Assembly: GCA_008704415.1 (NCBI GenBank) | Contig: VXIS01000156.1 | Coordinates: forward strand, 1 to 64,000 | DNA length: 64,000 nt | DNA from: Sphaerosporella brunnea | Taxonomy: Eukaryota > Ascomycota > Pezizomycetes > Pezizales > Pyronemataceae | Direction of reading: 5' to 3' | Part shown: piece by piece, positions 347-22,213 of the stretch | Layout of the letters: each line of letters starts with the position of its first letter | How positions within the stretch are numbered: position 1 is the stretch's first letter | Translations under genes and position numbers: made by a program | The notes under the pieces: model-generated | What the model was told of the DNA's origin: nothing | Database searches by the model: none | Seen by the model: only the letters and a program-made list of their open reading frames with translations

Positions 347-411
347 GGTGTGTCGAGGTCGGGAGCAGGAGCAGGAGCTACGTAGGTTGGAGATAGTTCG
401 ACAGAACGTAC

Positions 412-1068: not shown

Positions 1069-4000
1069 ATGACTAAGATGCACTGCATGACTAGGCACGC
1101 CTTTCGGTGACCCTATCATGACCCTTTGATGCGCAAATAACTAACCCGAGCCTTATGGCTTGATCCGACAGCCGGTGAGTCTCTGTTCCCGCGGTCAGTC
1201 TCGCTGTTGCTAACGAGAGCCTTGTGGCTTGATCCGACAGCAAGTGAGTCCTTGTTCCCGCGATCAGTCTCGCTGTTGCTAACGAGAGCCTTGTGGCTTG
1301 ATCCGACAGCGGGTAAGTGTCTGTTCTCGCGTTCAGCCTTGCTGTTGCTAATGAGAGCCCGATGTCTTGATCCGACAGCTAGTGAGTCACTGTTCCCTCG
1401 GTCAACCTTGCTGTTGCTAACGAGAGCCCGAATTCGACACCATGTGAGTCTCTGTTCCCGCGATCAGCCTTGCTGTTGCTGACGAGAGTCCGATGGCTTA
1501 ATTTGACAGCCGGTGAGTCTCTGTTCCCACAGTCAGCCTTGCAGTTGCTAACGAGAGCCCAAATTCCACAGCATGTGAGTCTCTGTTCCTGCGGTCAGCC
1601 TTGCCGTTGCTAACAAGAGCCCGAATTCGACAGCATGTGAGTCTCTGTTCCCGTGGTCAGCCTTGCTGTTGCTGACGAGAGCTTGATGGCTTAATTCGAC
1701 AGCCGGTGAGTCTTTATTCCCGCGGTCAGCCTTACGGTTGCTAACGAGAACCTTGTGGCTTGATCTGACAGCTCGTCAGTGTCTGTTCCCACGGTCAGCC
1801 TTGCTGTTGCTAATGAGAGTCCGATGTCTTAATCCGACAGCTAGTGAGTCTCTGTTCCCTCGGTCAACCTTGCATTTGCTAACTAGAGCCCGAATTTGAC
1901 AGCCTGTGAGTTAGTGATGGGTACGACCCAACCTCAACCGAGGTTGAAGTCGTCGACCCAGGTCGGAATTCGCAAATTGTTCGCGACCTGGAGGGGATTA
2001 AACTTTAAGGGTCCGGCGCAGCCTGAGCGCGCGCGCCGGGAGTGCTCTATCTGCATATCATAATATTCTCCTCATTATTTTCCTCGTCGTCAGTTTTCCT
2101 CGTCGTTAGTTTTCCTCGTCGTCAGTTTTCCTCGTCGTCAGCGCCCTCAGGCTCGTCCCCGTTGTCCCCATCATCCCCATCGTTCCCACCATCTTCCAGC
2201 AGATAGTGCTTCACTAAAAACTCGCTTTCCTTACCTTGTTCTCGAGACTGCTCAAACTGCTTCTTCTCCTCCGTGATCTCGGGCAAGCCCAGCCAGTAGC
2301 AAAGGCACATAATTGGATCCGCAGTTTCGGGAGCCAGCCGGTTCCGCTTTTTGGAGATCAAATCACCTGCCTTGGAGAAGACCCGCTCACTAAGTACCAA
2401 ATAAGAGAGTTAGCCTGAGTTGAGAGTCCGAGCGCCCTATATGATAGAGTAGACGTACCTGGGAACGGAGGATCAGGGGATCGCAGCGTTGTCCCGCAAA
2501 ACCTTCGCGAGGTAGGGGTACTCGAGTTTATGGATATCCCACCATGCAATAATATCCTTTGTCATAGCAGCTGATGGGGTGTCTAGGTGTAACGGAGAGG
2601 GTTGGGAACAGGCTGGAGGGGCCCAAGGTACTCGCGTACAGAGGGTTATTGTAATGGGACAGGCGCGAGGAAACGTCCAACGTATGTAGCTTTTGAGGCA
2701 AGGACCGGAGGCAGGAGGACAAGGACAATCGGCAGAAGAAGATGAGACAAGACAAGGTGGTTCAAGGTTACTAGGTTCGCTAGTATACAAGACTTTCTGT
2801 AAAGAAGAGAAGGAGAAAAGAAACAAAAACAAGTGAAACCTCGCTATTTATGCTTTCCCATCACATGACCGCGCGTCACGTGACACCCTAACCCTAGCGC
2901 CGAGCCACCCCTTAACCTTGAGCCGTGACCGTATCCCCCTCTTATGGCTGAGCTCCGACGAAGCTTCAGCTGTCATCTGGGAGTGGTCCGGGCTTGTGTG
3001 GGTACAATTCGTGGAAGCGGTCGATAGCTTCAAGGCCATTGATTCCTTCCGCCGCCTCCCATTCCGGTGGGTCGTAGCCGTTCCACTTTACCAGATATTT
3101 GAGGCGGCCCCTTACCAAGTGGTAATCCAGAATGGCATCGACGGACCATTCTTTTTCGCCATCGACAACAACAGGGAGAAGGGGTGGAATGATCTGTCCA
3201 GGGAGCGGGTCGGAAGATGCCGGGTTTAGGAGCGAGACCGGAAAGGTGCGATGGTTCTTCATGGTGTTGGGGATGTCCAATTCATAGGCATGGGTACCGA
3301 CGGCTCGAACCACCCAGTAAGGGCCCAGGTGCTTGATTTCGAGTTTCCTAGATCGTCGTTCCGTGCGCAAGTTCCTAGAGTCCAGCCAGACGAGGTCGTT
3401 CTCTTTGAACACAGGGGCGGGGGCTCGGGACCGATTGGCGGCTTCAGTATATCTGGCTTGGGCGTACTTCATCTCGGCTTGTAGAACGTCGTGAATGTGT
3501 GACATCCGCTCGGCCACCAGCTGCGCGTCAACCTGTTCAGGGTTGTCGGTCCGAATGTCTAGCTCAAAGGAGCACTTAGGGTTACGGCCATAGACGGCGA
3601 AGAAGGGAGACAGTGACGTAGTCTCGGAAGCCTGGTTATTGGCTGCGAATTCGGCCAGGGGGAGATACTTCTTCCAATCGTCCTGCAGGTATGATACGTA
3701 GGCGCGGAGATACTGCTCCGTGACGGCATTGATCCGTTCTGTCTGACCATCGGTCTGCGGGTGGAAGGCGGTGCTTGGAGCAGTCTCAATCTCAAGACAG
3801 GAAGCAAGGTGTTTCCAGAAGTGAGCAACGAACTGGGGGCCTCGGTCGGAGATGAGAACGTCGGAGAGGCCATGGTGCTTGAAGAGGTTGTCAATAAATA
3901 GCTGAGTGAATCCTTCCGCGTCGATGGTTGTAAGACAGAGGATCAGGTGGCGTTGATTTGTTAGTCAACAAATTACTGTGCAGATTGCGTCGTCGCCTTC

Positions 4001-7000
4001 CGAGACAGGAAGTCCAGTGACAAAGTCGACGGAGACACTTTGCCAAGGATGGTGTGGGACAGGAAGAGGCTTCAGAGCCCCGAACGGTGCGTGTCTTGTT
4101 GCTTTCATCCGTCGGCAGGTATGACAATTGCGTACGAATCTCTCAACGTGGTGTCGCATACTTGTCCAGTAGTAGCGTCGGGATAGGAGTTCCAAGGTCT
4201 TTGCACATCCCGGGTGTCCCATGGTTGGAGGGTCGTGGTGGTCCTGAATGAGTCGGAGCCGAAGGGGGGCGTGATCTGGGACGTAGAAGCATCCGTGGTA
4301 CATTAACCTCCCTTGGTGCTCAGAGCAGTCGGCAAGTGAAATGTCTTTGGAGATTTGGGTGCCTTTTGCCAGCATCTCCAGGACTCGTTGCGGGAAATGA
4401 TCCGCTTCGTACCCTTTGTCAAACAGGGTTTCCAGGGAGGACGGTCCGGTGCTGGGTGGGTTTTCCGCCATCAAACGTAGATTGTCGGGCAGGTTCTGCA
4501 GTTTGGGGACTGCCTGTTGGTTGGCCAAAAGTCGTTCATCCCCCTCTTTAGGGAGGTCTCCAGACCTCCTAGTGAGGGCGTCGGGTTTCCCACCAGCGAC
4601 ACCGGGTCGATAGACTATCTTGAAGTTGAAGCGAGACAGGAATTCGGACCAGCGGGCCTGGCCACGGTTGAGCAGTTTCGTTGTCATGAAATATTCCAGG
4701 TTCTTGCGATCGGTGAGAACCTGGACGGGGAACGCGGAGCCTTCAAGGTGGGGACGCCATTCCTCGAAGCATCGAACGATAGCCATCAACTCCTTGTTGT
4801 AGATCTCATAGTTGCATTCGGCAGGGGAGTGTTTCTTGGAAAAGAAGGCGACGGGGTGGAGGGTTCCCTCATCGTCATACTGGGAGAGGACACCGGCTGA
4901 GACGTAGTCTGATGCATCGGTTTCGACAACAACTTCACGATCATAGTCGAAGTGTCGGAGAATCGGGGCGGTTGTAAAAGCCTTTTTGAGGGTATCGAAC
5001 GCATTTTCCTGCACGGTACCCCACACAAACGGCACGGGTTGGCCATTGTCTTTCTTGGTCAGCGAGGTGAGTGGGGCAACCACCTTTGAATAGTCGCGAA
5101 TGAACCGGCGATAGAAGTTCGCAAATCCTAAGAATTCCTGAATGTCCTTGAGGTTGGATGGTGGTTCCCATCCCATGATTGTTTGGACTTTGCTGGGGTC
5201 CATCTTGATGCGGTTGCGTCCGACCAGTAAGCCCAGGTACTTGACCTCCATCTGATAGAACTTGCATTTCTCCGGCTTGAGGTGGAGCCCAGCTTTGCTG
5301 AGAGCATCGAGGATCTGCTTGATATGCTCGCGGTGTTCTTCGATGGTCTCTGAATAGATCAAGATGTCGTCGAGGTAGGCCGTACAAAAGCAGTCGAGGA
5401 ACGGTCGAAGTACGTCGTTGATGAAGGCTTGGAAGTTGGCAGGGGCATTTGTGAGTCCGAAAGGTATGACCAGGGATTCGAAAAGCCTGTAGCGGGTTCT
5501 GAAGGCGGTCTTCCATTCTTCCCCTTCAGCCATGCGGACCAGGTTGTAGGCTCCTCGGATGTCTAACGTCGTGAAGTATTTTGCCTTGGAGAGCTGCATC
5601 AGTGTCTCCTGGATCAGAGGTAACGGGTACCTGTTCTTGATAGTTCCTTTGTTCAGGCCTCGGTAGTCAACACACAGCCGTAGAGACCCGTCTGCTTTCT
5701 TAACAAACAGGATGGGCGACGCGGCTGGCGAGGACGAGCGGCGGATAAATCCCTTTTCCAAGTTTTCTTCGAGCCAGGCCTTGAGGGCTTCCAGCTCCTT
5801 TCGGGAGAGGGAATACAGAGGGCCAAATGGGGGAACGAAGCCCTCTCTCAAAGGAATCTTAAGGTCATATGGTCGATGCGGCGGTAGTCTATTTGCAATT
5901 GCCTCCTTGAACAAAGGGAGATAGCCGTGGAATTCGGCGGGGACAATTTTGCGTAGGTCGTTGTCGTCTTCGGCGTACTTCTTTTCAAGGGCCCTATTCA
6001 TTTGGTACAGGGATATAGAATAGACGGCTAAGTGCTTTTTCTTGGCCAATCGGCAAAAGGAGGAGGCTTTTCGTGAGGCGATGTGGAGTTTTGCTGGCGC
6101 TGCTGTGATGGGTTCCCGAAAGACCTCTGGAGGTTCTTCGCTAAGGGCTGAGACGGTTGTTGGTACGGGGTTGCAGTGAGTCAGGCAGTATTGTGATCCG
6201 AAGGTGAGAGTCCGAGAGCTGAATCGGATCGCGACGTCGTGGAGCTGGAGCCAGGGGATTCCGAGTACAATGGGGTAGTGTCCTAATTTGGTGACAAACA
6301 TGGGGAGTTGTTCTTGGTGATCTTGGATGGTACATTGGGCGACGGACAGATGAGTGATGTCACCGGAAGAGATTGGACGGCCGTCGATTACTTCGAGGGC
6401 ACGGGGTTTTCTTAAGGAGCGTAAGGGGAGTTGGTGATGGCGAGCGAAGTCTTCGTCCACAAAGGATATGCCAGTTGCGCCACAATCGATCAGCGCATGA
6501 GTACGAACAGTTTTTTTGCTGAATGACAGAGTGCAAGAAACAATAAGGTGCTTTCCTTCCAGTACTGTTTCCTCCACAAATGTGTCCGTAACTCCAAGAG
6601 CTGTCAATCCTAAGCTAGACAAAGACAACAAGATGGGGTGACCAGCAGCATAGCCATCAATGTACGGCTGGTCTAGGCGTTTCCCGACTGGTTGTCGGTC
6701 GGGAGGGGAGTGAGCCTGGTAGTCGTAGTGGTGGCGGCGGCTCGGAGGTGGGCCGGCTTATTGGTGCAGGTCGCAGCCAAGTGCCCGTGGCCACCGCAGT
6801 AGAGACAGCGACCCTCGGCAAGCCGGGCAGCTCGTTCCTGGGGTGTGATCTTGCGGCGATTGGCGGAAAGGTCCATGGGTGTAGGTACGGGCTGCGTAGT
6901 GTCAGGTGGAGGCTGGGGGGCCGAAGTGGGGGCGAAGGTTCCTTGAGGCGTGCAGGGTCGTTGTGGAGTAGTGACCGGATGGTGACTGGCGTTGCGGGGG

Positions 7001-10000
7001 GCTGAAGACGAAGTGCTAGACCGGAGTTTGCGGAGGTGCTCGACGGCACGCATTTGGGAGTCGAGACGTTGGCACAGGTTGACAAAGTCGTTAAGGTTGG
7101 TAGGATTCGGGGTGCCGATGAGCTTCTCGAGGATTTCGATTGAGAGTCCATGCCGGAGGGCATCCATGGTGGCACGTTGATCCCAATCCAAATCGGAGAC
7201 CAGCCTGGAGAACTCGGCGTAGTATAGCGAGAATTCCATGTTGCGTTGTCGAAGGGTTTGGAGCTTGTGACGAGCTGTGGCGGCGCGGTCCGGGTCACCC
7301 AAGGCAGTCTGGAGGACGCTGATGACGTCTTCAACATCGTTGAGTCCTGTAATCCTGCCATTATCGTGAATGTAGGGGAGGAGTTGTTCCATCGCACGGC
7401 CTTCGCATCGGTTGATGGCATAGGACAACCGTAGCTGGGGGGTTGGGAAACGTGTGGTGTCTGCGAACAGCTTGAGACGGAGCTGGGCGACAAACGACCG
7501 AAGCTTATCGTGGGTGCCGTCGAACATAGGCGCGTCCGGGAGCTTGTCACCTCGTGCTCCATGGTTCTCCGGTGCCGGCTGGCCCAGGAGGCGGGTGATG
7601 ATTTCTCGTTGACAGACCAGTTCTTGCTCGGCAGCGTCAGCTTGAGCGGTTTCTTCGGGCAAGGTAAGGTCGTCGTCCGTGGGTGCAGGTGTATAGTCAG
7701 GGGTGCTGAGGACTTCGGTGCAGATTCTGTGGATATAGTCGAGAGGGTCGTTGTTTTCAAGATCGGTGAGAGCGCTGGCAGCCACGAGGCGTGCCCAGAG
7801 GTCGTCGGAGATAGCTTTGTATATCGGCATGGTGTGTCGAGGTCGAGAGCAGGAGCAGGAGCTACGTAGGTTGGAGATAGTTCGACAGGACGTACTGTAA
7901 TGGGACAGGCGCGAGGAAACGTCCAAGGTACGTAGCTTTCAAGGCAAGGACCGGAGGCAGGAGGACAAGGACAAGAGGCAGAAGAAGACGAGACAAGACA
8001 AGGTGGTTCAAGGTTACTAGGTTCGCTAGTATACAAGACGTTCTGTAAAGAAGAAAAGAAGAAAAGAAACAACAACAAGTGAAACCTCGCCATTTATGCT
8101 TTCCCGTCACGTGACCGCGCGTCACGTGACACCCTAACCCTAGCGCCGAGCCACCCCTTAACCTTGAGCAGTGACAGTTATTGGACAGGTTCAGAAATGA
8201 GGGGCCGTGACAGGATCCGGAGACAGGACGAGAGGCGCGACGAGCACGGTCGGAATTCAGATTGGAACGAAGGTACACAGATTGACATACGAAGGTTCAG
8301 TAAAGAGGAAAGGAAAACGAACAACAAAGAGGAAGTGAAGGCCCATTATAGCACTCACGTAATTGTGGTGCGCCGCGCCACGTGGTAGCCGAACATAACC
8401 TCGGCTCGGAGCCATCCCAGCGAGCCTCCCTACAGAGCCTCATTACGACACCACAAACAACCCCTACTTCCAAACCTCACCACGTGACAACCATCCATGG
8501 GTGGGTAAATCTGAGAACAGCAAATGAATCAACATCCTTTGAAGTCTTAGATCTGAGAACTTCAGCCGATTCCATGGAGAGTAAAAGCCGGTAGCTTAGT
8601 CTGAAAACTCCTTCCAAAGTTGCGTCGTGACACCAGCTCGGGGCGAGACAGCGAGTATAGGGGGCTAAAGGGGGGTTCAAACCCCTCCTTGAACGGTATC
8701 TTGTGGTCGTAGGGCCAGTGGGGAGGTAGGTGATTGGCTACCGCTTTCGAAAAGAGGGGTAGAAACTCGTAGTATTGCTGAGGGACCAGTGACTTTAGGT
8801 CCCCCTCGTCGATCACCTTACGCTCCAACGCCTTGTTGATTTCATACAGCGATAGGGAGAAAAGCTGGAGCTGGCCGTATCGCTGTTTCTTGTTTTTGAC
8901 CAGACGTTGGAAGGAGGTGGCCGACACTATTGCAATGTCTAGGGACTGAGTAGGGAGAGTCATCCCTTTGACGCTTGTCGGCTTCAGTGTTGTCCTGTGG
9001 GCGACGCAGCGAGGGGAGTCGAAGGAGACGTCGTTTGAGGCAAAGCGGATTGACACTCCATGGTGCCACATCCAAGGGATGCCCAAGATCAGAGGGTAGT
9101 GGCCGAGCTTGGTGACGAAGGCAGGCAACGTCTCATGGTGACCGCCGATCGACATCCCCACCTTGACAATGTGGGTGATGTCTCCGGACGAGATGGGTCT
9201 ACCGTCTATAACCTCGAGGGCGCGAGGAACGCGTAGTGCATACTGGGGAAAATGATGTTGGAGAGCAAATTCTTCGTCGATGAAAGCAAAACCAGTGGCT
9301 CCTCAGTCAATCAGTGCGTGGGTTTGGGTCTTGTTATCACTATCGGAGAGGGAACACGTAACTACGAGATGGTTTCCATCCATTGATTCCTCCTCCACAC
9401 TTTGATTTGAGAGAGTTACCAAAGATAAGGAAACGCAGCCTGGCCTGCAGGCCGGAGAGCCGTGACAACAAGGAAAAGACGAAGAAGATTCTGGACGTCC
9501 CATGGCGGTGCCAACCTTGCGGCATGGGACAACTAGTTTTCCGACGGTTGGGTGTCGGAGGTGGGGATAAGTTTTTCCGGGGGCTGAGCAGTAGGGGTAG
9601 CCGTGGCTACCACCGACGCCTTGGCAGCACGGACACGCCAAGCCTCAGCAGCCAGCCGGCGAGGGCAATCGAGGCTGGAGTGGTGATTCGATCCACAGTA
9701 GGTACACTGCCCCTTTGCCATTCTCTCCTCCCGGATCCTCTGGCGCTCGGCCTCACGCCGGGCAGCTGAGAGCTCCATTGGGGCCGGGCTATAGTTTCCA
9801 CTGTTCGAGTTGGTGGAATAGTTTCCCGTGGTTGCAGGGGCAGTGACAGTGGATGAGGATGGCGCATGGCGGTGAGGGGTGCTTTAATGGTTGGTGGTAG
9901 TGACGGTGGGGCGAGACAATGATGGCTTACGTGCCTCTGCTCGGGCACGGATTCGATTGTCCACGTGCTTGCAAAGGTAAACAAAGGCTGCCAGAGTGTC

Positions 10001-13000
10001 ATCGGAGGCTGCTCGGTGCAGGAGGGCGTCCTTCATCTCTTCCGACAAGCCTTCACAAAGTTGTTCTTTCTGGGCGACTTCGTCCCAGTTAAGATCTCCC
10101 ATGAGGCGGTGGAAGTCAGCCAGATAGCTGAAAAAATGGCAGGTTTTTTGACGGAGACAGCAAATTTCACGGGCAGCAGTTCGAGAGCGGTCGGGGTCGT
10201 CATAGGCCTGTCGGAGGATGGTCAACAGATCATTGAGGGAGGCCAGGGTGATATCTCCGGTGTCTTCATCGGCATACGAGCGCAGCTGGTTCAGAGCTGC
10301 TCCTGACAGGCGGTTGAAGGCGTACCGGAGACGGGCTTGTTTGATTGGGTAACGGGTTGGCTGGGCAGCAAGCTTGTTGCGGAGCTGTAAGATCCAGGTC
10401 CTCAGCTCTTCGGGCTTGGTGCCGTCAAAGGTAGGGGCGTCGGGAAAGCCACCCAACTGGGTGCCTCCTTCGAGGTGGTCACGGGTCTAGGCGGCAGCGA
10501 TCGTCAGGACCTGATTCAGTTGAGTGGTCAGGTCCCAGAGCCGCTGCTGGGCAGCAGCAAGGCCGGTGCGAGTGGCATGACGCTCGAGATGGGCCGTTTG
10601 GAGCTCAGCACGGGTCTCTTCCAGCTCCTCCTCCAAGTTGGGCGGAGCTTCGCAGGCTATTAGTCGTTGTGCCATGTGGGCGAAATTAATCAGACGTTGG
10701 TTGCGCTCCTCCTGCGGGAAGCCTTCCAGAGGTGCCTGAGCACCAGTTTCGATGGCTGCCCAGAGATCAGAGGGAATCTGAAGATCTCGGTGGGTAGCCA
10801 TGGTGATGCAGGGGGGGTGGCGATGTGGTAGACAGAGCGAGTAAGTCAGGCTTTGGTGGACTGAACCTCGTGTAACGGAGAGGGTCGGGAACAGGCTGGA
10901 GGGGCCTAAGGTACTCGCGTACAGAGGGTTATTGAACAGGTTCAGGAACGAGGGGCCGTGACAGGACCCGAAGGCAGGATGAGAGGCGCGACGCGCACGG
11001 TCAGGACTCAAATTGGAACGAAGGTACTCAGATTGACATACGAAGGTTCAGTAAAGAGGAAAGGAAAACAAACAACAAAGCGGAAGCGAAGGCCCCTTAT
11101 AGCAATCATGTGATCGCGGTGCGCCGCGCCACGTGGTAGCCGAACAAAACCTCAGCTCAGAGCCATCCCACCGAGCCTCCCTACAGAGCCTCATCACGAC
11201 ACTACAAACAACCCCCACTTCCAAACCTCACCACGTGACAACCATCCACAGGGGGGTAAATTTGAGAACAGCAAATGAATCAACATCCTTTGAAGTCTTA
11301 GATCTGAGAGTTTCAGCCGATTCCATAGAGAGTAAAAGTCGGTAGCTTAGTCTGAAAACTCCATCCAAACTTGCGCCGTGACACGAGGTAGCACTGCAAC
11401 TCAACTCTCCATTGCTGCTCCTTGCCGCGCCCACTACCAGTGGGTGCTGCTTGCGCTGGTTCCTGAGACCCGAAGATTGAAAGATCCTCAGGATCCAGGG
11501 TTTTTTTGGGTTGGCTGTTGGAGATGGAGTCTGACTGTAAGGAGGTGAGGTGCTGGGTCTTGTCTGATGGATAATACTCTCTCAGCACCCGTTCGAGGGA
11601 ATTGCGCGCGGCTTGAAGATCGCAAGGCCTTCATCCTTGTCTCTCCAGTGTGATCAACTTCAGGCGAGGATCCAGGATCGTTGAGATGCGCTGTGCAGTG
11701 AATGAATCCGTTCTGTCTCGATAGTTATTCAGTTTGTCCAACGCTGCCTCGCAAGCCTCCCAAGCTGTGTCATTATGATCCTTACCCCCCGGCTCAAACT
11801 TATTTTGCTGATTACGTAGTCGGTTGGAGATTTTCCAGTACGCTGGCAGTTGCTGGCTCAGTGTAGGGTAGCGCTCCCCCGAAATATCCTCTGTCGGCTT
11901 GCTGAAAACGGCCAGAATGGTGTTCAGCTTTTCCAACCACGCCCAATCAAAGTCATCTAGCATGAGGTTAAGATTGAAAAGCTTAGACTTGCTGCGGTAC
12001 ATGCGATCGACCGCGGGGCGAACGTCAAGCAAACGCTGAATAAGTAGATGAGTGCTGTTCCACCGAGTGCACACGTTGAGGAGCAACTTCAGCTGCTTCA
12101 ATCCTTTAACCCTCTCAAACTCCGCCAGCGCCTCCCCAAGAATATTGGATTTGCGGGTTTTGGCGACAATCTTTCGAGCAACATGCAGGATCACCGCAAC
12201 TGCAGCCTGTTCATTGTAGGTGTCCGCTCGGCTGATATCTGGCTCCGCGGTATTGTCTTTCGACAACTTGTCCTCGTTGACCGCTTCCTTGTCGACGTTG
12301 AGGACGGTCAGGATTTCCTGGGCGGCAAGATTGAGTATGTGAGCGAAACACCCAACAAAACAATCTTGAACGGTAAACTTCCCCCAGCGCTCATCCGTTT
12401 GAAGGGCGGTAGCCATCGCCTTGTTGATAGACGCATTGTCGGAGGTGATCGAGCGTATATGGCCAGTTATTCCGAACTCTTCAGTTACAGCGATGAGGAT
12501 GGCGGCCTGACGCTCGGCGTTGTGACTGGCAGGCAATGGGCGGAACGCCAGCAAAAGGCTACGGAGCGTCGATGGCTTCCCGCGGCAGATTCTCTCGACA
12601 AAATAACCTGTAACCGCGAGGTAGTTCTGCTGCGAGCAGGACGTCCAGCCATCCAAAGTCAAGCTGACCCTCCCACCGTTCTTAATGTGCCGCTGTAGCA
12701 CAAGCTTAACCTCCTCCTGCTTTTTCTTTCGCAATTTGACCATTTCCCGCCCTAGGGTCCGCCGAGAAATGAGAAAGGGACGTATGTAACGGAGAGGGTC
12801 GGGAACAGGCTGGAGGGGCCCAAGATACTCGCGTACAGAGGGTTATCGAACAGGTTCAGGAACGAGGGGCCGGGACAGGATCCGGAGGCAGGACGAGAGG
12901 CGCGACGCGCACGGTCAAGGTTCAGATTGGAACGAAGGTACTCAGATTGACATACGAAGGTTCAGTAAAGAGGAAAGGGAAACAAACAACAAAGCGGAAG

Positions 13001-16000
13001 CGAAGGCCCCTTATAGCAATCACGTGACTGCGGTGCGCCGCGCCACGTGGTAGCCGAACATAACCTCGGCTCGGAGCCACTCCACCGAGCCTCCCTACAG
13101 AGCATCATCACGACACCACAGACAACCCCCCACTTCCGAACCTCACCACGTGACAACCATCCACGGGGGGGGAAAAATCTGAGAACAGCAAATGAATCAG
13201 CATCCTTTGAAGCCTTAGATCTGAGAGTTCTAGCCGATTCCATCGAGAGTAAAAGCCGGTAGCTTAGTCGGAAAACTCCATCCAAACTCGCGTCGTGACA
13301 GTATCCCCCTCCTACGGCTGAGCTCCGGCGAAGCTCATTCATCTTCCGGCAGAGGCCCCGGCTTGTCCGAATAGGCCTTGTGGAAGCGATCGATAGCTTC
13401 CAGACCATTGACCATCTCGGCTGGTTCCCACTTCGGCCGATCGTAGCCGGTCCACTTGACCAAATACTGGAGCTTACGCCACCGTCCATGCAGTCGGGAG
13501 TCCAATATCCGATCGACGAACCACTCCTGCTCGCCCTCAATCTCCACCGGGGGTGGTGGGTCCTGTCGTTGTCCCGGATAAAGATCATCGGGTGCCGGTT
13601 CCAGGAGGGAGACGTGAAAGACTGGGTGGACATACATATCCTCATGGAGGCGGAGGCGGTAGGCGTATGCCGAGACCTTCTCGGTAACCTCAACCGGGCC
13701 GTGACGCTTATTGTCCAGCTTACTGGCTGGACGCCGAGTCTTCCAATTCTGGGCATCAAGCCAGACCTTGTCTCCAACCTGATAATCAGGAGCCAGTATG
13801 CGGTGCTCGTCGGCGTTGTCCTGATATCTCATCTGGGCCCGTAAGAGTTCCGTACGAAAGTGCGAGTGGATCTCCGATAGCGTCCTGGCAGTAGTTAAGG
13901 CTCTGCGGTCATCAACGTTGTTGGGGGCTGCAGGAGACAGATCAAACTGGTAACGAGGATCGAAGCCCTTGTTGGCAAAGAACGGTGATGAACCATGAGC
14001 TTCTGATGCCTGGTTGTTGGTTGCGAACTCGGCCAGCGGCAGCCAGTCGGCCCAGTCATCCTGGAGGTAGTTGACGTAGGCCCGAAGATACTGCTCCATA
14101 ACCGCATTGATCCTTTTGGTCTGTCCATCAGTCTGCGGGTGGAAGGCCGTTGAGAGGCGACGTTCGATTCCAAGCCTTCCACAGAGATGTTCCCAAAAGT
14201 CCGATGCAAACTGTGGTCCACGGTCCGAGACTATGGTGAGTGGTAAGCCGTGAAGGCGGAATACGTGCTGGATGAAGAGGTCAGCTAGTCCTGCTGCGTC
14301 AACATTGGTCCGGCAAGGGATCAGATGTCGCTCCTTCGTAAGGCGGTCAACCACAACCCAAATCGCATTACAGCCTTGTGACCATGGGAGTCCGGTGACA
14401 AAGTCCATTGATATGTCCTGCCAGGGGCGTTCTGGGATCGGGAGGGGTCGCAGGATCCCGTAGGGTGCATGACGGCCTGTTCGGGAGCGTTGGCAGACGT
14501 GGCAGTTACGGACATACCGTTCCACATCCTACCGCATCTTTGGCCAGTGGTAGGTTCGACAAAGCAACTCAAGAGTTTTGGATCTTCCTGGGTGGCCAGC
14601 GACGGGGGCATCGTGGTGTTGTTGCATCAGATGCAGCCGGAGGGGCTCGTATTCGGGCACGTAAAGCTTACCCCTATAGGTGAGACGATCTCCTTCTTGG
14701 GCGCATTCTGCCAACGTGATCCGGCGGCTATGGCGGACTCCGTCTTGCAACATCCGAAGGACCTGAGACGGAAACGGGTCCGCATCGTAAGCTTCTTGGA
14801 ACAGGCGGGCAAGTGTCACTGCTTCGTCTCCTAGGGGTGGTGGAGGCTGTGCCGGCGGGCCATCGGCCAGGAGGTGGACGATCTGGTGGGGCTTTATGAC
14901 GATGGAAAAATTTTCAGTCGTGCGCTCATCCCCCTCCTTAGGCAGATCTCCTGATCTGCGAGTTAGTGAGTCCGGCTTCCCACCAGACTTTCCAGGACGG
15001 TAGACGATCTTGAAGTTGAATTGCGACAGGAACTGAGACCAACGGGCTTGACGTCGATTCATGAGCTTGGTGGTCGTAAAATACTCCAAGTTCTTGTGAT
15101 CGGTGAGCACCTGGATTGGATTTTCCACGGATTGGAGTTCCGGTCGCCATTCCTCAAAAGCCCGGACGATAGCCATCAACTCCTTGTCGTAGATCTCGTA
15201 GTTGCATTCTGCAGGGGAATGCTTCTTAGAGAAGTACGCAACAGGGTGGAGGATGCCGTCGTCGTTCGTACTGTGATAGGATGCCAGCGGAGACATAGTC
15301 GGAGGCGTCTGTTTCCACGATGACGTCATGGTCGTGGTCAAAGCGACGGAGGACTGGGGCGGTGGTGAAGCACGTCTTGAGGTTGTCAAAGGCTTCCTGT
15401 TCGGTCTTGGTCCATTGGAATGGCACGTCCTTTTGGGTCAAACGGGTGAGTGGTCGTACCACCTGCGAGTAGGAACGTATGAATCGGCGGTAGAAGTTGG
15501 CAAATCCAAGGAAGGCTCTGACATCCTTCAGCTTCTCCGGGGTCGGCCAAGCCTTCACTGCCTCCACCTTGTCTGGGTCCATCCGTATGCCGTCAATGCC
15601 GATGATCAGCCCAAGATACTTAACCTCCCGTTGGTGAAACTCGCATTTCTCCGGCTTGAGGTGGAGCCCGGCTTCTGAAAGCCGACGGAGGACCTGTCGG
15701 ATGTGGTCTTGGTGCTCTTCCAGGGTGTCCGAATAGATCAAGATGTCATCCAAGTAGGCAGAGGCAAAGCGGTCCAGAAACGGTGAGAGAGTATCGTTGA
15801 TAAACCGTTGGAAGTCAGCAGGAGCGTTGGTAAGACCGAATGGCATCACCAGGGATTCGAATAGTCCATATCGGGTCATGAAGGCCGTTTTCCATTCCTC
15901 ACCCTCTGCCATTCGGATCAGGTTGTAGGCTCCGCGGACGTCCAACTTGCTAAACCAGCGAGCCTTGGAGAGCCTCATCAGTGTCTCTCGTACCAACGGG

Positions 16001-19000
16001 AGCGGATACCTGTTCTTGATCGTTCCTTCGTTGAGACCTCGGTAGTCAACCACCAGGCGTAAGGATCCATCCCCCTTCTTGACGAAGAGGATTGGGGCGC
16101 CGGCGGGTGAAGAGGAGGCCCTGATGAACCCCTTCGATAGGTTTTCCTCCAACCAGGTCTTCAGGGCTTCCAGCTCGGGGCGAGACAGCGAGTATAGGGG
16201 GCCAAAGGGGGGTTCAAACCCCTCCTTGAACGGTATCTTGTGGTCGTACGGGCGGTGAGGGGGCAGGTGGTTGGCTACGGCTTCCGAGAAGAGGGGTAGG
16301 AACTCATGATATTGCTGAGGGACCAGTGACTTTAGATCCCCTTCGTTAATGGTTTTCCGTTCCAACACCTTGTTGATTTCGTAGAGCGACAGGGAGAAAA
16401 GCTGGAGCCGACCGTATCGTTGCTTCTTGTTCCTGACGAGACGTTGGAAGGAGGTAGCGGAGACTATCGCAATGTCTAGGGGTCGAGCGGGGGGAGTTAC
16501 TCCTTTGACGCTTGCCGGTTTATGTGTTGTCCTGTGGGCGGCACACCTAGGGGAGTCAAAGGCAACGTCGTTGGAGGCAAAGCGGACAGATACTCCATGG
16601 TGCCTTAACCAGGGAATACCAAGAACAAGAGGGTAGTGGCCGAGTTTGGTAACGAAGGCGGGCAACGTTTCGTGGTGGCCGCCGATCGACATCCCCACTT
16701 TGACAATGTGGGTGATGTCTCCGGACGAGATGGGTCTACCGTCTATGACCTCGAGGGCGCGAGGAACGCGTAGTGCATACTGGGGAAAATGATGTTGGCG
16801 GGCAAATTCTTCGTCGATGAAGGCAAAACCAGTAGCTCCACAATCGATCAGTGCGTGGGTTTGAATCTTGTTATCACTATCGGAGAGGGAACACGTAACT
16901 ACGAGATGATTTCCATCCATTGATTCCTCTCCTACACCCTGATCCGAAAGAGCTACCGAAGATAAAGAAAGACAGCCCGGCCTGCGAGCCGGGGAACAAC
17001 AAGGAAACGACGAAGAAGAAGCGGGGCGTCCCATGGCGGTGCCAACCTTGCGGCATGGGACAACTAGTTTTCCGACGGCTGGACGTCGGGGGTAGCTGTG
17101 GCTACCAGTGATGCTTCGGCAGCGCGCACTCGACGGGCGTCGGCAGCCAGCCGGCGGGGGCAATCCAGGCGGAAGTGCTGGTCGGATCCACAGTAGGTGC
17201 ACTGTCCCTTCGCCATCCTCTCCTCGCGAATCCTCTGGCGCTCAGCCTCCCGCCGTGCGGCCGAAAGCTCCATTGGGGTTGGGCCGTAGTTCCCACTGTT
17301 GGAGTTGGTCGGGTGGTTACCTGTGGCAACAGGGGCAGCGGGTGTAGACGAGGTTGAGGGGCGGGGAGCGCTCCGAGGGTTGACGGTGACGGAAGGGCGA
17401 GAAGCCGAAGGGTTGGTGATGGGAGGGCGAGAGGCCGAAGGCTTACGCTCCTCTGCCCGGGCGCGAATCCGATTATCCACATCCTTGCAGAGGTTGACTG
17501 AAGGCTGCCAGGGTGTCATCGGAGGCTGCTCGGTGCAGGAGGGCGTCCTTCATCTCTTCCGACAAGCCTTCATAAAGTTGGTCTTTCTGGGCGATTTCGT
17601 CCCAGTTAAGGTCTCCCATGAGGCGGCGGAAGTCAGGCCAGATAGGTGGAGAAGGGCAGGTTTCGTTGACGGAGACGGCGAATTTCACGGGCAGCGGTTC
17701 GAGAGCGGTCGGGGTCGTCATAGGCTTGTCGGAGGATGGTCAACAGATCATTGAGGGAGGCCAGGGTGATATCTCCGGTGTCTTCATCGGCATACGAGCG
17801 CAGCTGGTTCAGAGCTGCTCCTGACAGGCGGTTGAAGGCGTACCGGAGACGGGCTTGTTCGGTTGGGTAACGGGTTGGCTGGGCAGCAAGCTTGTTGCGG
17901 AGCTGTAGGATCCAGGTCCTCAGCTCTTCGGGCTTGGTGCCGTCGAAGGTCGGGGCATCGGGGAAGCCACCCGACTGGGTGCCTCCTTCAGGGTGGTCAC
18001 GGATCTGGGCGGCGGCGATTGCTAGAACCTGATTTAGTTGAGCTGTGAGGTCCCTTGCCTGCTGCTGGGCAGCGGCCAGGCCGGTGCGGGCTGCATCGCG
18101 TTCGAGGAGGGCTGTCTGGAGCTCAGCACGCGTCTCCTCCAGCTCCACCTCCAGGTTGGGTGGGGGTTCGCAGGCCAAGAGTCGCTGTGCCATATGGGCG
18201 AAGTCGATCAAACGTTGATCGCGCTCTTCTGGGGGGAAGCCTTCTTTCGGGGGCGCCTGGGCGCCAGTTTCAATGGCTGCCCAGAGCTCCTGAGGGATTC
18301 GGAGGTCGTGGTAGGCGGCCATGGTGGAACGAGGGACGAGGTGACAGAACGAGTAGGTTGGGCTTTGGTCGACTGAACCTAGTGTAACGGAGAGGGTCGG
18401 GGACAGACTGGAGGGGCCCAAGGTACTCGCGTACAGAGAGTTATCGGACAGGTTCAAGAACGAGAGCAGGGACGAGATCCGGAGGCAGGACGAGAGGCGC
18501 GATGCGCACGGTCAGGATTCAGATTGGAACGAAGGTACTCAGATTGACATACGAAGGTTCAGTAAAGAGGAAAGGAAAACAACAACAAGGCGGAAGCGAA
18601 GGCCCCTTATAGCAATCACGTGACTGCGGTGCGCCGCGCCACGTGGTTGCCGAACATAACCTTGGCTCGGAGCCACTCCACCGAGCCTCCCTACAGAGCC
18701 TCATCACGACACCACAGACAACCCCCCACTTCCGAACCTCACCACGTGACAACCATCCACGGGGGGGGAAAAATCTGAGAACAGCAAATGAATCAGCATC
18801 CTTTGAAGCCTTAGATCTGAGAGTTCCAGCCGATTCCATCGAGAGTAAAAGCCGGTAGCTTAGTCGGAAAACTCCATCCAAACTCGCGCCGTGACAACGT
18901 ACAGAGGAGTCCAAATATTCGAGCAGTTCGTGAAACTGCGGGTTTTCGACCACGCTGGTTGTAATGTTGGCAGAAATGAAAAACTCTAAAAGAAGTCTTC

Positions 19001-22000
19001 GGAACTTCCGCAGACTAATCTTTGAGCCAGCCTGAACTTAAGTTAGCCTCCACCGCATGGCAAAAGTCACAGCTCCAGGATAAACCTACCTTTCTGTACT
19101 TCCAGCTCGGCACCTTTTCCACCACAAGACCGGCCTCATGCGCACTGCGCTTGCCCAAGCCTTGATACTGTTTGTTCGGATTTTCGGTCTCAGGAACACC
19201 TTCCAATTCACGCTTCTCTTCCGCTTCGTTCCAGGGCACGCCCGGATGCCTGTTCTTAACATGCTTATTCAAGAACGACGACGTTGTGTGGCCGGCATCC
19301 ATCTTCCAGTGTCCTTTTCCTGGTTTGAACTCGGACTCAGGCTCGGCGTGACACCAAGTACAGTACACGTCGTGGCGAACTGTACCTTTTCTCGACCGGG
19401 GGAGGTGTGGTGCCTCGAGGCGGAGTAGGACCTTATGCTGGTGGAGGTATCCCTTAAACTTCTTCGGCTTCGGAAATTGCGGAGTCAATATCAGTTTCTC
19501 TGGGAAGTGCTGGCACAAGGCATCATAATGCCCTGACAGCGTCTTGAAAAACGACGATCTCCTGGAATAGTCGAGCTGAAGTACGGCTTTGGCTGCGGAC
19601 ATTGTTGAAGACTGCTGATGTTTCACGGAAGGACTGATGTTTCACGGAAGGACTGTGAGCGGCCTCAGGCTTTTTTTATTCACACTCCGATTCATTTCAC
19701 AGTCACCATGATGAAATCTCGCGGACCGCAAAGCACTCGGGCTCGCACAGCGCTTGCACAGCGCTCGCACAGCACTTGCACAGCGCTCGCACAGCTTTTT
19801 TGCAGTCGCGACGGGCAGCGGTAACTTCGATGTGTTTTTGAGGTTGTGGAGCCTATCTACACGCCTCCGGGTGGCCCTTGTTTAACGTTTCGCACGGTGC
19901 CGCCCAGGTCGCGACTTGGTCGAGAATTAGACCTGTTTTTTCCGACCTGGTCGGGTCGAAAGTCGTCGAATCTGCGACCTAGGTCGAGATTGTGCCCATC
20001 ACTACTGTGAGTCTCTGTTCCTGCGGTCAATCTTGCTGTTGCTAACGAGAGCCCAAATTCGACAGCTTGTGAGTCTCTGTTCCCGTGGTCAGCCTTGCTG
20101 TTGCTGACAAGAGCTCGATGGCTTAATTCAACAGCCGGTGAGTCTCTGTTCCCGCGGTCAGCCTTGCTGTTGCTGACGAGAGTACGATGGCTTGATTTGA
20201 CAGCCGGTGAGTCTCTGTTTTCGCGATCAGCCTCGCTGTTGCTAACGAGAGCTCAATGGCTTGATCCGACAGCTAGTGAGTCTCTGTTCCCGCGGTTAGC
20301 CTTGCTGTTGCTAACGAGAGCCTTGTGGCTTGATCCGACAGCTAGTGAGTCTCTGTTCCCGCGATCAGCCTCGCTGTTGCTAACGAGAGCCTTGTGGCTT
20401 GATCCGACAGCCGGTGAGTCTCTGTTCCCGCGATCAGCCTTGCTGTTGCTAACGAGAGCTCAATGGCTTGATCCGACAGCCGGTGAGTCTCTTTCCCCGC
20501 GATCAGCCTCGCTGTTGCTAACGAGAGCTCAATGGCTTGATCCGACAGCACGTGAGTCTCTGTTCCCGCGGTTAGCCTTGCTGTTGCTAACGAGAGCCTT
20601 GTGGCTTGATCCGACAGCGGGTAAGTCTCTGTTCCCGCGGTCAGCCTTGCTATTCAACATCTAACGAGAGCCCGATGTCTTGATCCGACAGCTAGTGAGT
20701 CTTTGTTCCGGCGGTCAGCCTTGCTGTTGCTAATGAGAGCCTTGTGGCTTGATCCGACAGCCGGTGAGTCTCTTTCCCGCGGTCAGCCTTGCTGTTGCTA
20801 ATGAGAGATTAATGGCTTGATCCGACAGCTTGTGGGTCTCAGTTGCCGCGGTCAGCGTCGCTAACTTAATGGCTTGATCCGACAGCGAGTGAGTCGCTCT
20901 TCTCGCGGTCAGCCTTGCTGTTGCTAACGAGAGCCTTGTGGCTTGATCCGACAGCCGGTGAGTCTCTTTCCCGCGGTCAGCCTTGCTGTTCAACATCTAA
21001 CGAGAGCCCGATGTCTTGATCCGACAGCGCGTGAGTCTCTTTTCCCGCGGTCAGCCTTGCTGTTGCTAACGAGAGCTTTGTGACTTGATCTGACAGCGGG
21101 TGAGTCTCTTTTTCCGTGGTCAGCCTTGCTGTTCAACATCTAACGAGAAACCGATGGCTTGATCCGACAGCGAGTGAGTCTCTGTTCCCGCGATCAGTCT
21201 CGCTGTTGCTAACGAGAGTCTTGTGGCTTGATCCGACAGCCTGTGAGTCTCTGTTCCCGCGATCAGCGTCGCTGTTGCTAACGAGAGCCTAATGGCTTGA
21301 TCCGACAGCGAGTGAGTCTCTGTTCTCACTGTTAACGTTGCTGTTGCTCTGTAGCTAACGATTGCCTCATGGCTTGATCCAACAGCCTGTGAGTCTTTCC
21401 CACAATTCTGTTTTAATATCTTGCTAATTTTTCGGTCATCCAACAGTGAGTGAGTGGTGTCTGAAATTCTGTCGTATTTGTGATGATTAGATTTCTCTAA
21501 CTTACCGCTCGGTCATTCTAATGCAGAAAGTAAGTGATCCATGTCACTCGCTCCGCCGTTGGGGTTCCCTGCTAATAATGTGACCCGACGTGATTGTCTG
21601 ACAGGCTGTGAGATCTTCCATATTCTCGCATTTTCATTTCAGCACAATACTAAAAGCAGGGTGATGTGCTGTTTTATAGGAGGTTAGTCTCTTTGAACGT
21701 TTCCTTTAGTATCTTCCGGCTAACAGCAGTTCAACAATTGCGATATGTAGAAAGTTTGTTCTATCGTTCTCCCTTCTCATGTTGGGTCTCCTGCTAAAAT
21801 GAGTGCTATTCGTAATTGACAGAAAGTAAATTCCCCTCTTTTTCGTCTACTTGTCGTCGTCATTAACGTTTGTCACATAGCATGTGGGTTTGCGTCGGTT
21901 TGCCTGTTCGGGCCGTTGCTAACCTGGACGGGGAACGTACTCACACTTTAGCTGGTGGGTTCTTACACTCTATGCGCCTCGATGAATGCTAATCAGAAGC

Positions 22001-22213
22001 TGGGTCTTTCTTGTCCAGTTAGTACGTATTTTCACGAATGTAAATTCAGTCCAAGGGTTTTTAAGCTCACATGATGGCAGTCTCGAGAACCTCGAACGTG
22101 ATCTCAAAGCATCGATAGTGGACACCGTAACTGCGGCAGGACCGCAAGAATCTGGGTCTTTTGCGCAAGGTGACTTCAATGACGATGGTTTTGGCGTACC
22201 CGCAAGAAACTGA
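1069..22213 (+). CDS. Putative micro-exon gene: 41 exons of exactly 3 nt, one residue per exon
   Basis: No protein family is recognised. The proposed structure is exon 1 (1069-1106, donor GTGACC), then 41 three-base exons, then the terminal exon 22081-22213 ending in TGA. Exon starts are 1172, 1241, 1310, 1379, 1441, 1510, 1572, 1634, 1703, 1772, 1841, 1903, then 20066, 20135, 20204, 20273, 20342, 20411, 20480, 20549, 20618, 20692, 20761, 20829, 20886, 20955, 21028, 21097, 21171, 21240, 21309, 21386, 21447, 21527, 21605, 21680, 21751, 21823, 21881, 21952 and 22019. Exons sum to 294 nt, which is 97 residues plus stop, with every intron in phase 2 and no internal stop. The predicted middle part is Arg/Tyr-rich (starting RNGYIRIIRSYLFRRYY) and the C-terminus is acidic and Gly-rich. 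The introns are 54-77 nt with donor, branch and acceptor motifs, the same size class as other introns in the window. The exon at 1441 has a mutated acceptor (AC). One intron carries the 18-kb hAT insertion, so this copy may no longer be expressed. The start codon and any upstream exon are uncertain (1078 is an alternative ATG). All splicing is inferred, not observed. Confidence 0.55.
1107..1911 (+). repeat. Tandem intron-like array, left part (62/69-bp units)
   Basis: Units are spaced 69 or 62 bp apart. Each runs from a GTGAGT-type donor through a conserved middle and a branch-like GCTAAC/GCTGAC to an acceptor usually reading GACAG. Then comes a triplet C-N-N and the next donor. The 62-bp class lacks 7 bp near its 3' end. 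The middle of the unit is nearly identical between copies, while the two Ns differ. The first intron (1107-1171) matches the unit only in its 3' half. The array is cut at 1911 by the hAT element and resumes at 20005. Confidence 0.93.
2650..2930 (-). repeat. 3' LTR of element A
   Basis: The LTR is 281 bp, in the same orientation as the copy at 7896-8176. Its inner end is GTGACC where the other LTR has GTGACA. Confidence 0.9.
2966..6631 (-). pseudogene. Pol of element A (protease, RT, RNase H, integrase, chromo-like tail), one frame break
   Basis: The order read on the minus strand is as follows. Retropepsin is near 6495-6470 (LIDCGATG). Reverse transcriptase has LCVDYRGLNKGTI and the catalytic YLDDILIYS near 5380-5350. 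RNase H follows (VVETDASDYVSAGVLSQ). Integrase has a zinc-binding HHCC region (MGHPGCAKTLELL, CHTCRRMKATRHAPFG) and a DDE core. The C-terminus (YLVKWNGYDPPEWEAAE) resembles the chromodomain of chromoviruses. The first frame runs 6631-3965, and the integrase core continues in another frame from about 3950 to 2966, so there is one frameshift near 3960. Pol is in a separate frame downstream of Gag. Confidence 0.88.
6673..7830 (-). CDS. Gag of element A
   Basis: This is a 385-aa retrotransposon capsid/nucleocapsid protein. The start ATG at 7830-7828 (MPIYKAISDDLW) was chosen over the longer open frame, which runs into the LTR. The central part has the Ty3-type capsid signature (PDAPMFDGTHDKLRSFVAQL, then the motif around LYYAEFSRLVSDLDWD). 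The C-terminus carries a CCHC knuckle CLYCGGHGHLAATC followed by a Thr-rich tail. The frame is intact from start to stop. The protein would assemble the particle in which Pol copies the element RNA. Confidence 0.85.
   Translation of the reverse strand: MPIYKAISDDLWARLVAASALTDLENNDPLDYIHRICTEVLSTPDYTPAPTDDDLTLPEETAQADAAEQELVCQREIITRLLGQPAPENHGARGDKLPDAPMFDGTHDKLRSFVAQLRLKLFADTTRFPTPQLRLSYAINRCEGRAMEQLLPYIHDNGRITGLNDVEDVISVLQTALGDPDRAATARHKLQTLRQRNMEFSLYYAEFSRLVSDLDWDQRATMDALRHGLSIEILEKLIGTPNPTNLNDFVNLCQRLDSQMRAVEHLRKLRSSTSSSAPRNASHHPVTTPQRPCTPQGTFAPTSAPQPPPDTTQPVPTPMDLSANRRKITPQERAARLAEGRCLYCGGHGHLAATCTNKPAHLRAAATTTTTRLTPLPTDNQSGNA
7896..8176 (-). repeat. 5' LTR of element A
   Basis: The LTR is 281 bp with TG...CA ends on the plus strand. 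Gag starts 66 bp inside it. I could not identify a convincing tRNA primer-binding site next to it. Confidence 0.9.
8633..9641 (-). pseudogene. pol remnant of element B (protease and RT start)
   Basis: It contains the retropepsin region, but the catalytic motif DCGATG of the relatives is interrupted: the Cys codon is a TGA stop at about 9304. The remainder (9161-8633) matches the protease-RT linker of element C. It stops abruptly at the LTR, where C still has about 3 kb of RT, RNase H and integrase. It is therefore dead. Confidence 0.85.
9533..10801 (-). pseudogene. gag of element B, broken
   Basis: The start ATG is at 10801-10799 (MATHRDLQIPSDLW). The frame is closed by a TAG where element C has Gln (near 10488), continues at 10456-9884, and closes again. 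A CCHC zinc knuckle (CTYCGSNHHSSLDC) occurs near 9720-9680 in the segment ending at 9533. It corresponds to the nucleocapsid of Ty3-type Gag. Element C is its closest relative here. Confidence 0.85.
10871..11383 (-). repeat. 5' LTR of element B (513 bp)
   Basis: It aligns with the LTRs of element C (12785-13300 and 18383-18896) over its full length and has the same TG...CA ends. It is oriented as the upstream LTR because gag begins at 10801, just inside it. Confidence 0.9.
12785..13300 (-). repeat. 3' LTR of element C (516 bp)
   Basis: It starts TGTAACGG and ends GTGACA, directly after the integrase gene. It differs by small substitutions and indels from the partner at 18383-18896. Confidence 0.9.
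13335..17202 (-). pseudogene. pol of element C, one frameshift and one in-frame stop
   Basis: Retropepsin (LIDCGATGFAFIDEE) is near 16850. RT follows with LVVDYRGLNEGTI and YLDDILIYS near 15755-15730. RNase H has VVETDASDYVSAG, and integrase has GHPGRSKTLELL, CHVCQRSRTGRHAPYG and VSDRGPQFASDFW. A C-terminal chromo-like segment (YLVKWTGYDRPKWEPAE) follows. The frame shifts near 15270 and is interrupted by a single TAG (about 14527) where a Gln codon is likely, between WPKMR and DVERYVRNC. The catalytic motifs themselves are preserved. Confidence 0.88.
17064..18322 (-). pseudogene. gag of element C, two frameshifts
   Basis: The start ATG is at 18322-18320 (MAAYHDLRIPQELW). The capsid region (FPDAPTFDGTKPEELRTW) reads in frame to about 17637. 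It then continues in a second frame (RLMGDLNWDEIAQKDQLYEG) to about 17500 and in a third to the stop at 17064. The last part includes the CCHC knuckle CTYCGSDQHFRLDC. Element B retains the middle joints in frame, which shows that the shifts are mutations in C and not programmed. Confidence 0.85.
18383..18896 (-). repeat. 5' LTR of element C (514 bp)
   Basis: It has the same ends as the partner LTR. Gag begins at 18322, 61 bp inside the LTR. Confidence 0.9.
20005..21446 (+). repeat. Tandem intron-like array, right part
   Basis: This continues the left array. After removal of the hAT element and one copy of its target duplication, the split unit has the standard 62-bp spacing. It contains 20 triplets from 20066 to 21388, all beginning with C. 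Length variants keep the signals. The intron at 20832-20885 is only 54 nt but retains GCTAAC and GACAG. Three units carry a replaced block before the branch (CAACATCTAAC), and one has CTGTAGCTAAC. The last introns (ending at 21385 and 21446) are diverging from the consensus. Confidence 0.93.
21447..22080 (+). other. Nine single-copy introns with 3-nt exons, the non-repeat end of the micro-exon tract
   Basis: From 21450 onward the sequences no longer resemble the repeat, yet the same grammar persists. Donors are GTGAGT, GTAAGT, GTGAGA, GTTAGT, GTTTGT, GTAAAT, GTGGGT, GTGGGT and GTACGT. Branch-like motifs are CTAAC, GCTAAT, ACTAAA, GCTAAC, GCTAAA, TTAAC, GCTAAC, GCTAAT and GCTCAC. Each acceptor is followed by exactly 3 nt: TGA, AAA, GCT, GAG, AAA, AAA, CAT, CTG and TTA. 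Intron lengths are 77, 75, 72, 68, 69, 55, 68, 64 and 59 nt. This is the strongest argument that the tract is real spliced sequence and not a satellite with chance motifs. Confidence 0.7.

Follow-up and report, generated by a model that had tools for sequence, protein, structure and literature searches.

The window analysed here is a 64,000-nt stretch of the genome of Sphaerosporella brunnea (GenBank assembly GCA_008704415.1, contig VXIS01000156.1, positions 1 to 64,000, forward strand), and it starts at base 1 of the contig. Between positions 1107 and 22080 of the plus strand, direct parsing of the sequence predicts 42 introns separating 41 exons of exactly 3 nt each, an arrangement that very probably represents, or formerly represented, a spliced gene with successive one-codon exons. 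The full reading, in which this gene also has codons under diversifying selection, is given a probability of about two in three. We infer that the strain of the window is Sb_GMNB300, which is described as an ectomycorrhizal cup fungus with a genome assembled from PacBio reads; the published figures of 51.6 Mb and 872 contigs are unlike those of the assembly searched here, which comprises 50.57 Mb in 640 contigs (PMC6908789). The same source mentions the deposition of transcriptome data for S. brunnea, with SRP214822 and SRP215074 as the joint accessions of genome and transcriptome.

Layout and splice grammar of the predicted gene

A first exon of 38 nt (1069-1106), the 41 micro-exons and a last exon of 133 nt (22081-22213) add up to 294 nt, corresponding to 97 codons and a stop. 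This open frame, without internal stops and with phase-2 introns splitting every micro-exon codon, had been laid out in an earlier note on this DNA and was reproduced by the direct parsing. The 3-nt exons account for 123 of the 294 nt, or for 123 of 396 nt when a 43rd intron near the 3′ end is included, and the locus as predicted from the DNA agrees with the general notion of a micro-exon gene, whose coding sequence consists to a large extent of tiny exons. The first exon, with its weak donor GTGACC, is the least certain part, and a longer 5′ gene structure is possible. A TATA-like AT-rich stretch was noticed by eye at 755-790, approximately 280 nt upstream of the proposed ATG.

The earlier note had assigned a donor, a branch-like site and an acceptor to each of 42 consecutive introns lying 3 nt apart. 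The layout and the GT donor (42/42) stand; the acceptor AG is present in 41 of the 42 introns, and a branch-like motif, located 14-29 nt from the 3′ end, likewise in 41, intron 42 being the one without it. The list of accepted branch motifs was fairly generous (CTAAC, CTGAC and CTAAT, plus CTAAA and TTAAC). The donor hexamers are GTGAGT (29 introns), GTAAGT (3), GTGGGT (3) and seven others found once each, such as GTCAGT in intron 11. Of the 41 introns that have a branch motif, 40 end at the first HAG found 12 nt or more beyond the branch A; intron 5 does not. Apart from intron 13, which measures 59 nt with a large insertion set aside, the introns are 54-77 nt in length. Four splice-signal bases (donor G and T, branch A and acceptor A) are all found among the 18 of 66 intron sites that are unchanged (P 0.004), a test for which the sites were chosen by the analyst and the final G of the acceptor was left out owing to exon 5. 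With GT donors, CTAAC-like branch motifs, YAG acceptors and the usual spacing, the predicted introns fit the U2-type spliceosomal class.

At the 3′ end, the deposited gene model FN846DRAFT_909324 (92 residues, on a contig of 104,505 bp) is exactly reproduced by splicing the window sequence, and it places the acceptor at 22080 in the same frame as the parse. The last exon of 133 nt proposed in the earlier note is borne out in its start at this acceptor; its end is probably not, since the deposited model has an additional intron and a stop further downstream. Retention of this intron (22170-22224) would put the stop at 22211-22213, as first modelled. As the deposited model has both the last acceptor and the extra intron, the gene end is probably at 22370. 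The last exon of the deposited model includes a 30-nt tandem repeat (22298-22363), which encodes an acidic repeat.

Introns 2-32 are copies of a unit of ~69 nt. Aligned to the consensus of the unit with the splice sites excluded, introns 33-42 (55-77 nt) score z -1.2 to 2.8, with three of the ten at 2.3-2.8; among themselves, their 45 pairs give a mean z of 0.42 and a maximum of 3.98. A faint kinship of a few tail introns with the unit is possible. The tail is largely dissimilar in sequence, yet the splice grammar persists in it, and it would be the older part of the array. Unit lengths are not a multiple of 3 in 10 of the 31 units of the homogenised part and in 6 of the 9 tail units, with the exons constant at 3 nt. 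A genome search gave at least 31 matches to the unit, all inside the array on the same contig. The possibility of a dispersed introner-like element was rejected, as the unit matches listed (at least 31) are confined to one locus.

Chance was controlled by a permissive grammar applied to all material (YAG, 3 nt, a donor agreeing with at least two of the four bases of RAGT, a branch motif and an intron of 40-90 nt). Under this grammar, 29 micro-exons follow one another without a break in the right half and 9 in the tail alone (21389-22090), and the chain in the left half is limited to at most 7 because exon 5 breaks it. When the tail was dinucleotide-shuffled 3000 times, 1755 shuffles had no chain at all, and the longest chain was 1 in 1219, 2 in 25 and 3 in a single shuffle. 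On both strands of 20 stretches taken from this genome, 200 kb in all, there were 230 sites, three of which closed a chain of two and none a longer chain. The longest chain was 1 in the remainder of the window (22231-64000, both strands), in the transposon (both strands) and on the minus strand of the right half. A chance origin of the pattern is excluded by a wide margin. The earlier note had named a shuffling test of the tail grammar beforehand as a possible refutation, and the pattern came through it. Tandem Repeats Finder describes an ordinary 69-nt array and gives additional periods of two and three units (131 and 193 nt) for its left half. A plain minisatellite with an intron-like unit, neither transcribed nor spliced, would agree with this description. 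Such an explanation is quite improbable given that the dissimilar tail retains the grammar across nine exons, against at most three in the shuffles, that intron length drifts and exon length is fixed, and that the most changeable sites are exon sites, as detailed below.

Exon bases, intron bases and the reading frame

Exon base 1 is C in all 31 aligned units, and the pairwise diversity amounts to 0.75 at base 2 and 0.73 at base 3, as if these bases were random. On parsimony trees built from the intron units with the tested columns left out, exon bases 1, 2 and 3 require 0, 17 and 13 steps, respectively, and the 66 intron sites a mean of 2.04 and a maximum of 7.3; the probability that two named sites rank as the top two of 69 is 0.0004. 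Exon base 2 fits the tree no better than shuffles do (P 0.64). For the 17 unit pairs with less than 5% intron divergence, the mismatch at the three exon bases is 0, 0.82 and 0.53, compared with a mean of 0.059 and a maximum of 0.39 at intron sites; the 39 pairs below 8% give 0, 0.69 and 0.54 at the exon bases, with an intron mean of 0.102 and a maximum of 0.51. Introns 17 and 21 match completely over 66 nt, yet the exons on either side of them differ at bases 2 and 3. The phase-2 introns place the fast-changing exon bases at positions 1 and 2 of a codon and the invariant one at position 3, which is the reverse of ordinary coding DNA. With position 3 fixed as C, all 16 possible codons are sense codons (NNC is never a stop). 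In our view, translation of the exons is best supported by the hypervariable codon positions 1 and 2 together with the fixed C at position 3, and we read the contrast as a probable mark of diversifying selection on amino acids in an array with homogenised introns.

The main rival explanation also assumes a spliced gene, in which old codons would be under purifying selection and short gene-conversion tracts would homogenise only the introns together with the adjoining third-position base, exchanges that altered an amino acid having been lost. If the introns alone were homogenised, the contrast between exon and intron sites would be identical. The third-position C next to the intron does behave as intronic bases do; the tail exons, moreover, hold the frame and look old. 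We consider this account unlikely, since the conversion tracts must have stopped within 2 nt of the exons repeatedly, and the identical introns 17 and 21 are flanked on both sides by exons that differ at bases 2 and 3. In addition, the left-half periods of two and three units suggest block duplication of neighbouring units, exons included.

Regarding the frame, the unspliced ATG frame meets a stop after 13 codons, and in the array without the transposon, the three forward frames have 51-59 stops each. One unspliced frame is open for 217 codons (20011-20661) and would be compatible with an unspliced tandem-repeat protein built of 23-residue repeats (69 = 3 x 23). This explanation deserves hardly any credence, and it is already contradicted by frame breaks, which arise at the 10 of 31 unit lengths that are not a multiple of 3; the stops in all forward frames likewise oppose it, and none of 8000 scored candidates reached E 1. 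According to the earlier note, any subset of exons could be skipped without loss of frame, and this idea fared well, as all 41 exons are 3 nt long and random skipping of half of them led to a premature stop in 4 of 20,000 trials. No premature stop occurred in 20,000 trials when the skipping was limited to exons 1-32. The variable segment is rich in arginine and tyrosine (10 Arg and 5 Tyr of 32 residues), and the last 48 residues have a net charge of -10.

The locus could alternatively be a non-coding host transcript, in which the introns would be the product, as in host genes of small nucleolar RNAs (snoRNAs), and the 3-nt exons would be leftovers. Tandem introns carrying small RNAs are described for SNHG14 (PMC11608373). 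This alternative is improbable: no Rfam family matches at its gathering score in 700-22600, five folded units have z scores from -1.14 to -0.16, the tail introns are mostly without common sequence, and the fast sites are the exon bases, precisely codon positions 1 and 2, and not the introns. From the same Rfam and folding results, RNA structure or a known RNA family in the introns was rejected as a candidate. For the predicted protein of 131 residues, searches gave nothing in Pfam up to E 0.1 or in PDB up to E 1. A fungal NLR of the HNWD kind was rejected as well, since this Pfam search of the 131-residue protein gave no nucleotide-binding domain and no WD, ANK or TPR repeats.

Feature coordinates, insertion and neighbouring genes

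Table 1. Predicted parts of the micro-exon gene and the insertion in intron 13 (window positions)
Feature	Position	Strand	Remarks
Proposed first coding exon, MTKMHCMTRHAF plus two bases	1069..1106	+	Open frame; GT at 1107 begins intron 1 of 65 nt
Left array half: introns 1-12, micro-exons 1-12, start of intron 13	1107..1911	+	
Micro-exons 1-12, 3 nt each	First bases 1172, 1241, 1310, 1379, 1441, 1510, 1572, 1634, 1703, 1772, 1841, 1903	+	
hAT-like insertion with nested Gypsy-type retrotransposons	1912..20004		18,093 bp, in intron 13; 8-bp target duplication CTGTGAGT
Right half of homogenised array: remainder of intron 13, introns 14-32, micro-exons 13-32	20005..21388	+	
Micro-exons 13-32	First bases 20066, 20135, 20204, 20273, 20342, 20411, 20480, 20549, 20618, 20692, 20761, 20829, 20886, 20955, 21028, 21097, 21171, 21240, 21309, 21386	+	
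Dissimilar tail: introns 33-42, micro-exons 33-41	21389..22080	+	Grammar kept
Tail micro-exons	TGA 21447, AAA 21527, GCT 21605, GAG 21680, AAA 21751, AAA 21823, CAT 21881, CTG 21952, TTA 22019	+	
Large coding exon, LENLERDLKASIVDTVTAAGPQESGSFAQ	22081..22169	+	Acceptor 22080 and frame as in FN846DRAFT_909324
Probable 43rd intron, 55 nt	22170..22224	+	Deposited protein obtained only with this intron; branch-like CTGAC seen by eye
Probable last coding exon, charged repeat-rich end	22225..22370	+	Stop TAG 22368-22370; deposited model

The insertion in intron 13 has the hallmarks of a hAT element, namely the 8-bp target duplication and short terminal inverted repeats, the first 10 bp of its ends being perfect inverted repeats. 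The match to the hAT RNase-H-fold family PF14372 (window 11631-12842) is weak, with 22.3 bits against a Pfam cut-off of 27. Matches to Gypsy-type reverse transcriptase, integrase and chromodomain lie inside the insertion and indicate at least two Gypsy-type elements. Two pairs resembling long terminal repeats were found, 2647-2932/7893-8178 (94.1% identical over 286 columns, Jukes-Cantor 0.062) and 12785-13300/18383-18896 (95.7% identical over 516 columns, Jukes-Cantor 0.044), and their divergence implies that the insertion is not brand-new, provided that the pairs arose in place. A first-look genome search gave no other copy of the left 162 bases of the insertion. The contig start (window 1-693) is 96.1% identical to 7484-8177 and repeats a portion of the nested Gypsy-type element once more. 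The insertion has probably impaired the micro-exon gene in this strain and may silence this allele; the near-perfect splice signals in both array halves are neither proof nor disproof of continued function.

Two further loci of the window were noted. An open frame on the minus strand (29618-31156) contains a P-loop, GNPGIGKT, recognised by eye, with a sub-threshold match to nSTAND3 (E 0.0048), and possibly encodes an NTPase of a defence or Crinkler-like kind. A P450-reductase fusion is encoded at 41097-44650 (-); its frame 41097-43157 comprises p450, flavodoxin, FAD and NAD domains, and earlier exons were placed by eye. Its intron at 43158-43206 (49 nt, GTGAGC...TTAG, without a CTRAY motif) is the only one that could be placed in the other genes of the window, and one intron is too few for comparing the intron grammar with that of the micro-exon gene.

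Proposed mechanism and comparison with known systems

In the favoured explanation, the central part of the gene would be an in-frame minisatellite whose unit consists of an intron and one codon. The introns would be removed in succession by U2-type splicing of the ordinary kind under intron definition, as there is no room for two spliceosomes on a 3-nt exon at the same time, and each removal would add one codon to the mRNA. Each exon would be read as codon position 3 followed by positions 1 and 2 of the next codon. Unequal exchange among the ~69-nt units may add or delete whole codons with the frame untouched and keep the introns alike, and in the homogenised part, codon positions 1 and 2 would be driven apart by diversifying selection. 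The product would be a protein of ~131 residues with a variable segment rich in arginine and tyrosine, a constant part and an acidic end. A role in the recognition of non-self or of a partner is a guess made by analogy. The repeats of fungal NLR proteins are reported to combine concerted evolution with positive selection at a few codons, which generates diversity (PMC4986451), and this parallel makes recognition the first role to consider. A bolder and quite tentative view is that the array serves as a natural codon library for recognition between individuals or partners, in which one-codon exons with a third base C would be varied by mutation, array length and splicing. Owing to the third base C and the one-codon exons, mutations of the other two bases, gain or loss of units and nearly all skipping patterns leave the frame open. 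The array would in this respect be comparable to a synthetic NNC library, which allows variation with little risk of breaking the protein.

Several observations weigh against the favoured explanation. In the comparison of sites, intron position 52 has a diversity of 0.70, near the exon values, but shows only 7.3 changes; at the 8% limit, exon base 3 is hardly above the fastest intron site, and this base fits the tree slightly better than shuffles do (P 0.045), which indicates some inheritance. The tree used for counting changes consists of units among which recombination is possible, although the left-out intron sites were tested in the same way. As for the splice signals and the frame, exon 5 (1441-1443) has the acceptor ACAC, that of the sole intron without AG; if exon 5 is skipped, the protein has one codon fewer and the frame is kept. 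Permuting the order of the nine tail exons and exon 32 produced stops in 13,367 of 20,000 trials, and an open frame in the tail by itself is thus expected by chance in about one of three cases. The long unspliced open frame at 20011-20661 has to be counted here as well, and a heptad or amphipathic helix pattern running from the tail-encoded peptide into the next exon was not above chance (P 0.24). An intron 13 of 18 kb is expected to be poorly spliced in a fungus. The model FN846DRAFT_909324 starts within intron 41, with a donor at 22026, and supports the last acceptor only and no micro-exon. A protein search with the 97-residue prediction, suggested as a check in the earlier note, returned this deposited entry as its sole match; across a collection of 5.8 billion proteins, no homologue beyond FN846DRAFT_909324 was found (one candidate, and 18 in another search). 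Genome searches for paralogues of the large exon or the tail returned only the place of the query itself.

If the gene is spliced as predicted, a fungal spliceosome handles dozens of successive 3-nt exons, and the locus offers a test of what happens when two spliceosomes meet at an exon that is too short for them. If the explanation is true, a protein region grows by single codons out of an intron minisatellite, and the introns provide an internal yardstick for reading selection on single codons. We know of no longer run of one-codon exons. A search of open-access PubMed Central revealed no such run in the titles and abstract starts among the matches listed, which is not proof that there is none.

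In Schistosoma, the micro-exon genes (MEGs) have exons of more than one codon. MEGs are described as having multiple very small exons, which form up to 75% of the coding sequence; most of them encode a signal peptide, and protein variation through differential splicing is cited in the same review (PMC4015677). The S. brunnea gene differs from them in its predicted run of 41 one-codon exons, mostly in tandem-copied units, and in its hypervariable codons; inspection of the proposed first exon by eye shows no obvious signal peptide, and no family members were found in the genome searches. Exons as small as those predicted here are described singly or in small groups. For the 1-nt exon of Arabidopsis APC11, intron definition with successive removal is the proposed model (PMC4674806); Drosophila homothorax has a 3-bp micro-exon (PMC7392893), human RPS24 has three consecutive micro-exons of 3, 18 and 22 bp (PMC11162997), and adjacent micro-exons of 5 and 12 nt are reported in plants (PMC8831610). 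APC11, homothorax and RPS24 indicate that the spliceosome can include exons of 1-3 nt, as predicted for S. brunnea; these genes have one to three micro-exons and no tandem array, in contrast to 41 in a row. A paper of 2024 states that functional micro-exons had previously been undescribed in filamentous fungi (PMC11121469). The smallest exons are reported to be often missed by gene finders and aligners (PMC8831610, PMC7821500), and therefore more such genes may hide in published genomes.

Other systems resemble the array in its repetition. In polyubiquitin and other tandem-repeat genes with dual-specific splice sites, the repeat boundaries are splice sites and splicing varies the repeat number (PMC10809524). 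There, AGGT is used both ways and the unit is a whole ubiquitin, whereas in S. brunnea the AG and the GT lie one codon apart. The unit repeated in the fungal NLR proteins of the HNWD type (HET-D, HET-R and others of Podospora) is a protein motif of tens of residues, unlike the S. brunnea unit of 3 coding and ~66 intronic bases. Introner-like elements and stwintrons of fungi are described as multiplied, near-identical spliceosomal introns (PMC4457414; PMC8469720, PMC9024468). Introner-like elements occur in unrelated genes, in contrast to the S. brunnea unit, which occurs at one locus only among the matches listed (at least 31); stwintrons are nested, and the S. brunnea introns are consecutive. 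SNHG14 is reported to have dozens of tandem introns (29 and 48) in one transcript, which carry snoRNAs (PMC11608373), in contrast to the S. brunnea introns, which have no Rfam match at gathering scores within the range searched. Each of these known systems shares one trait with the predicted S. brunnea gene, and none of those compared has the whole combination.

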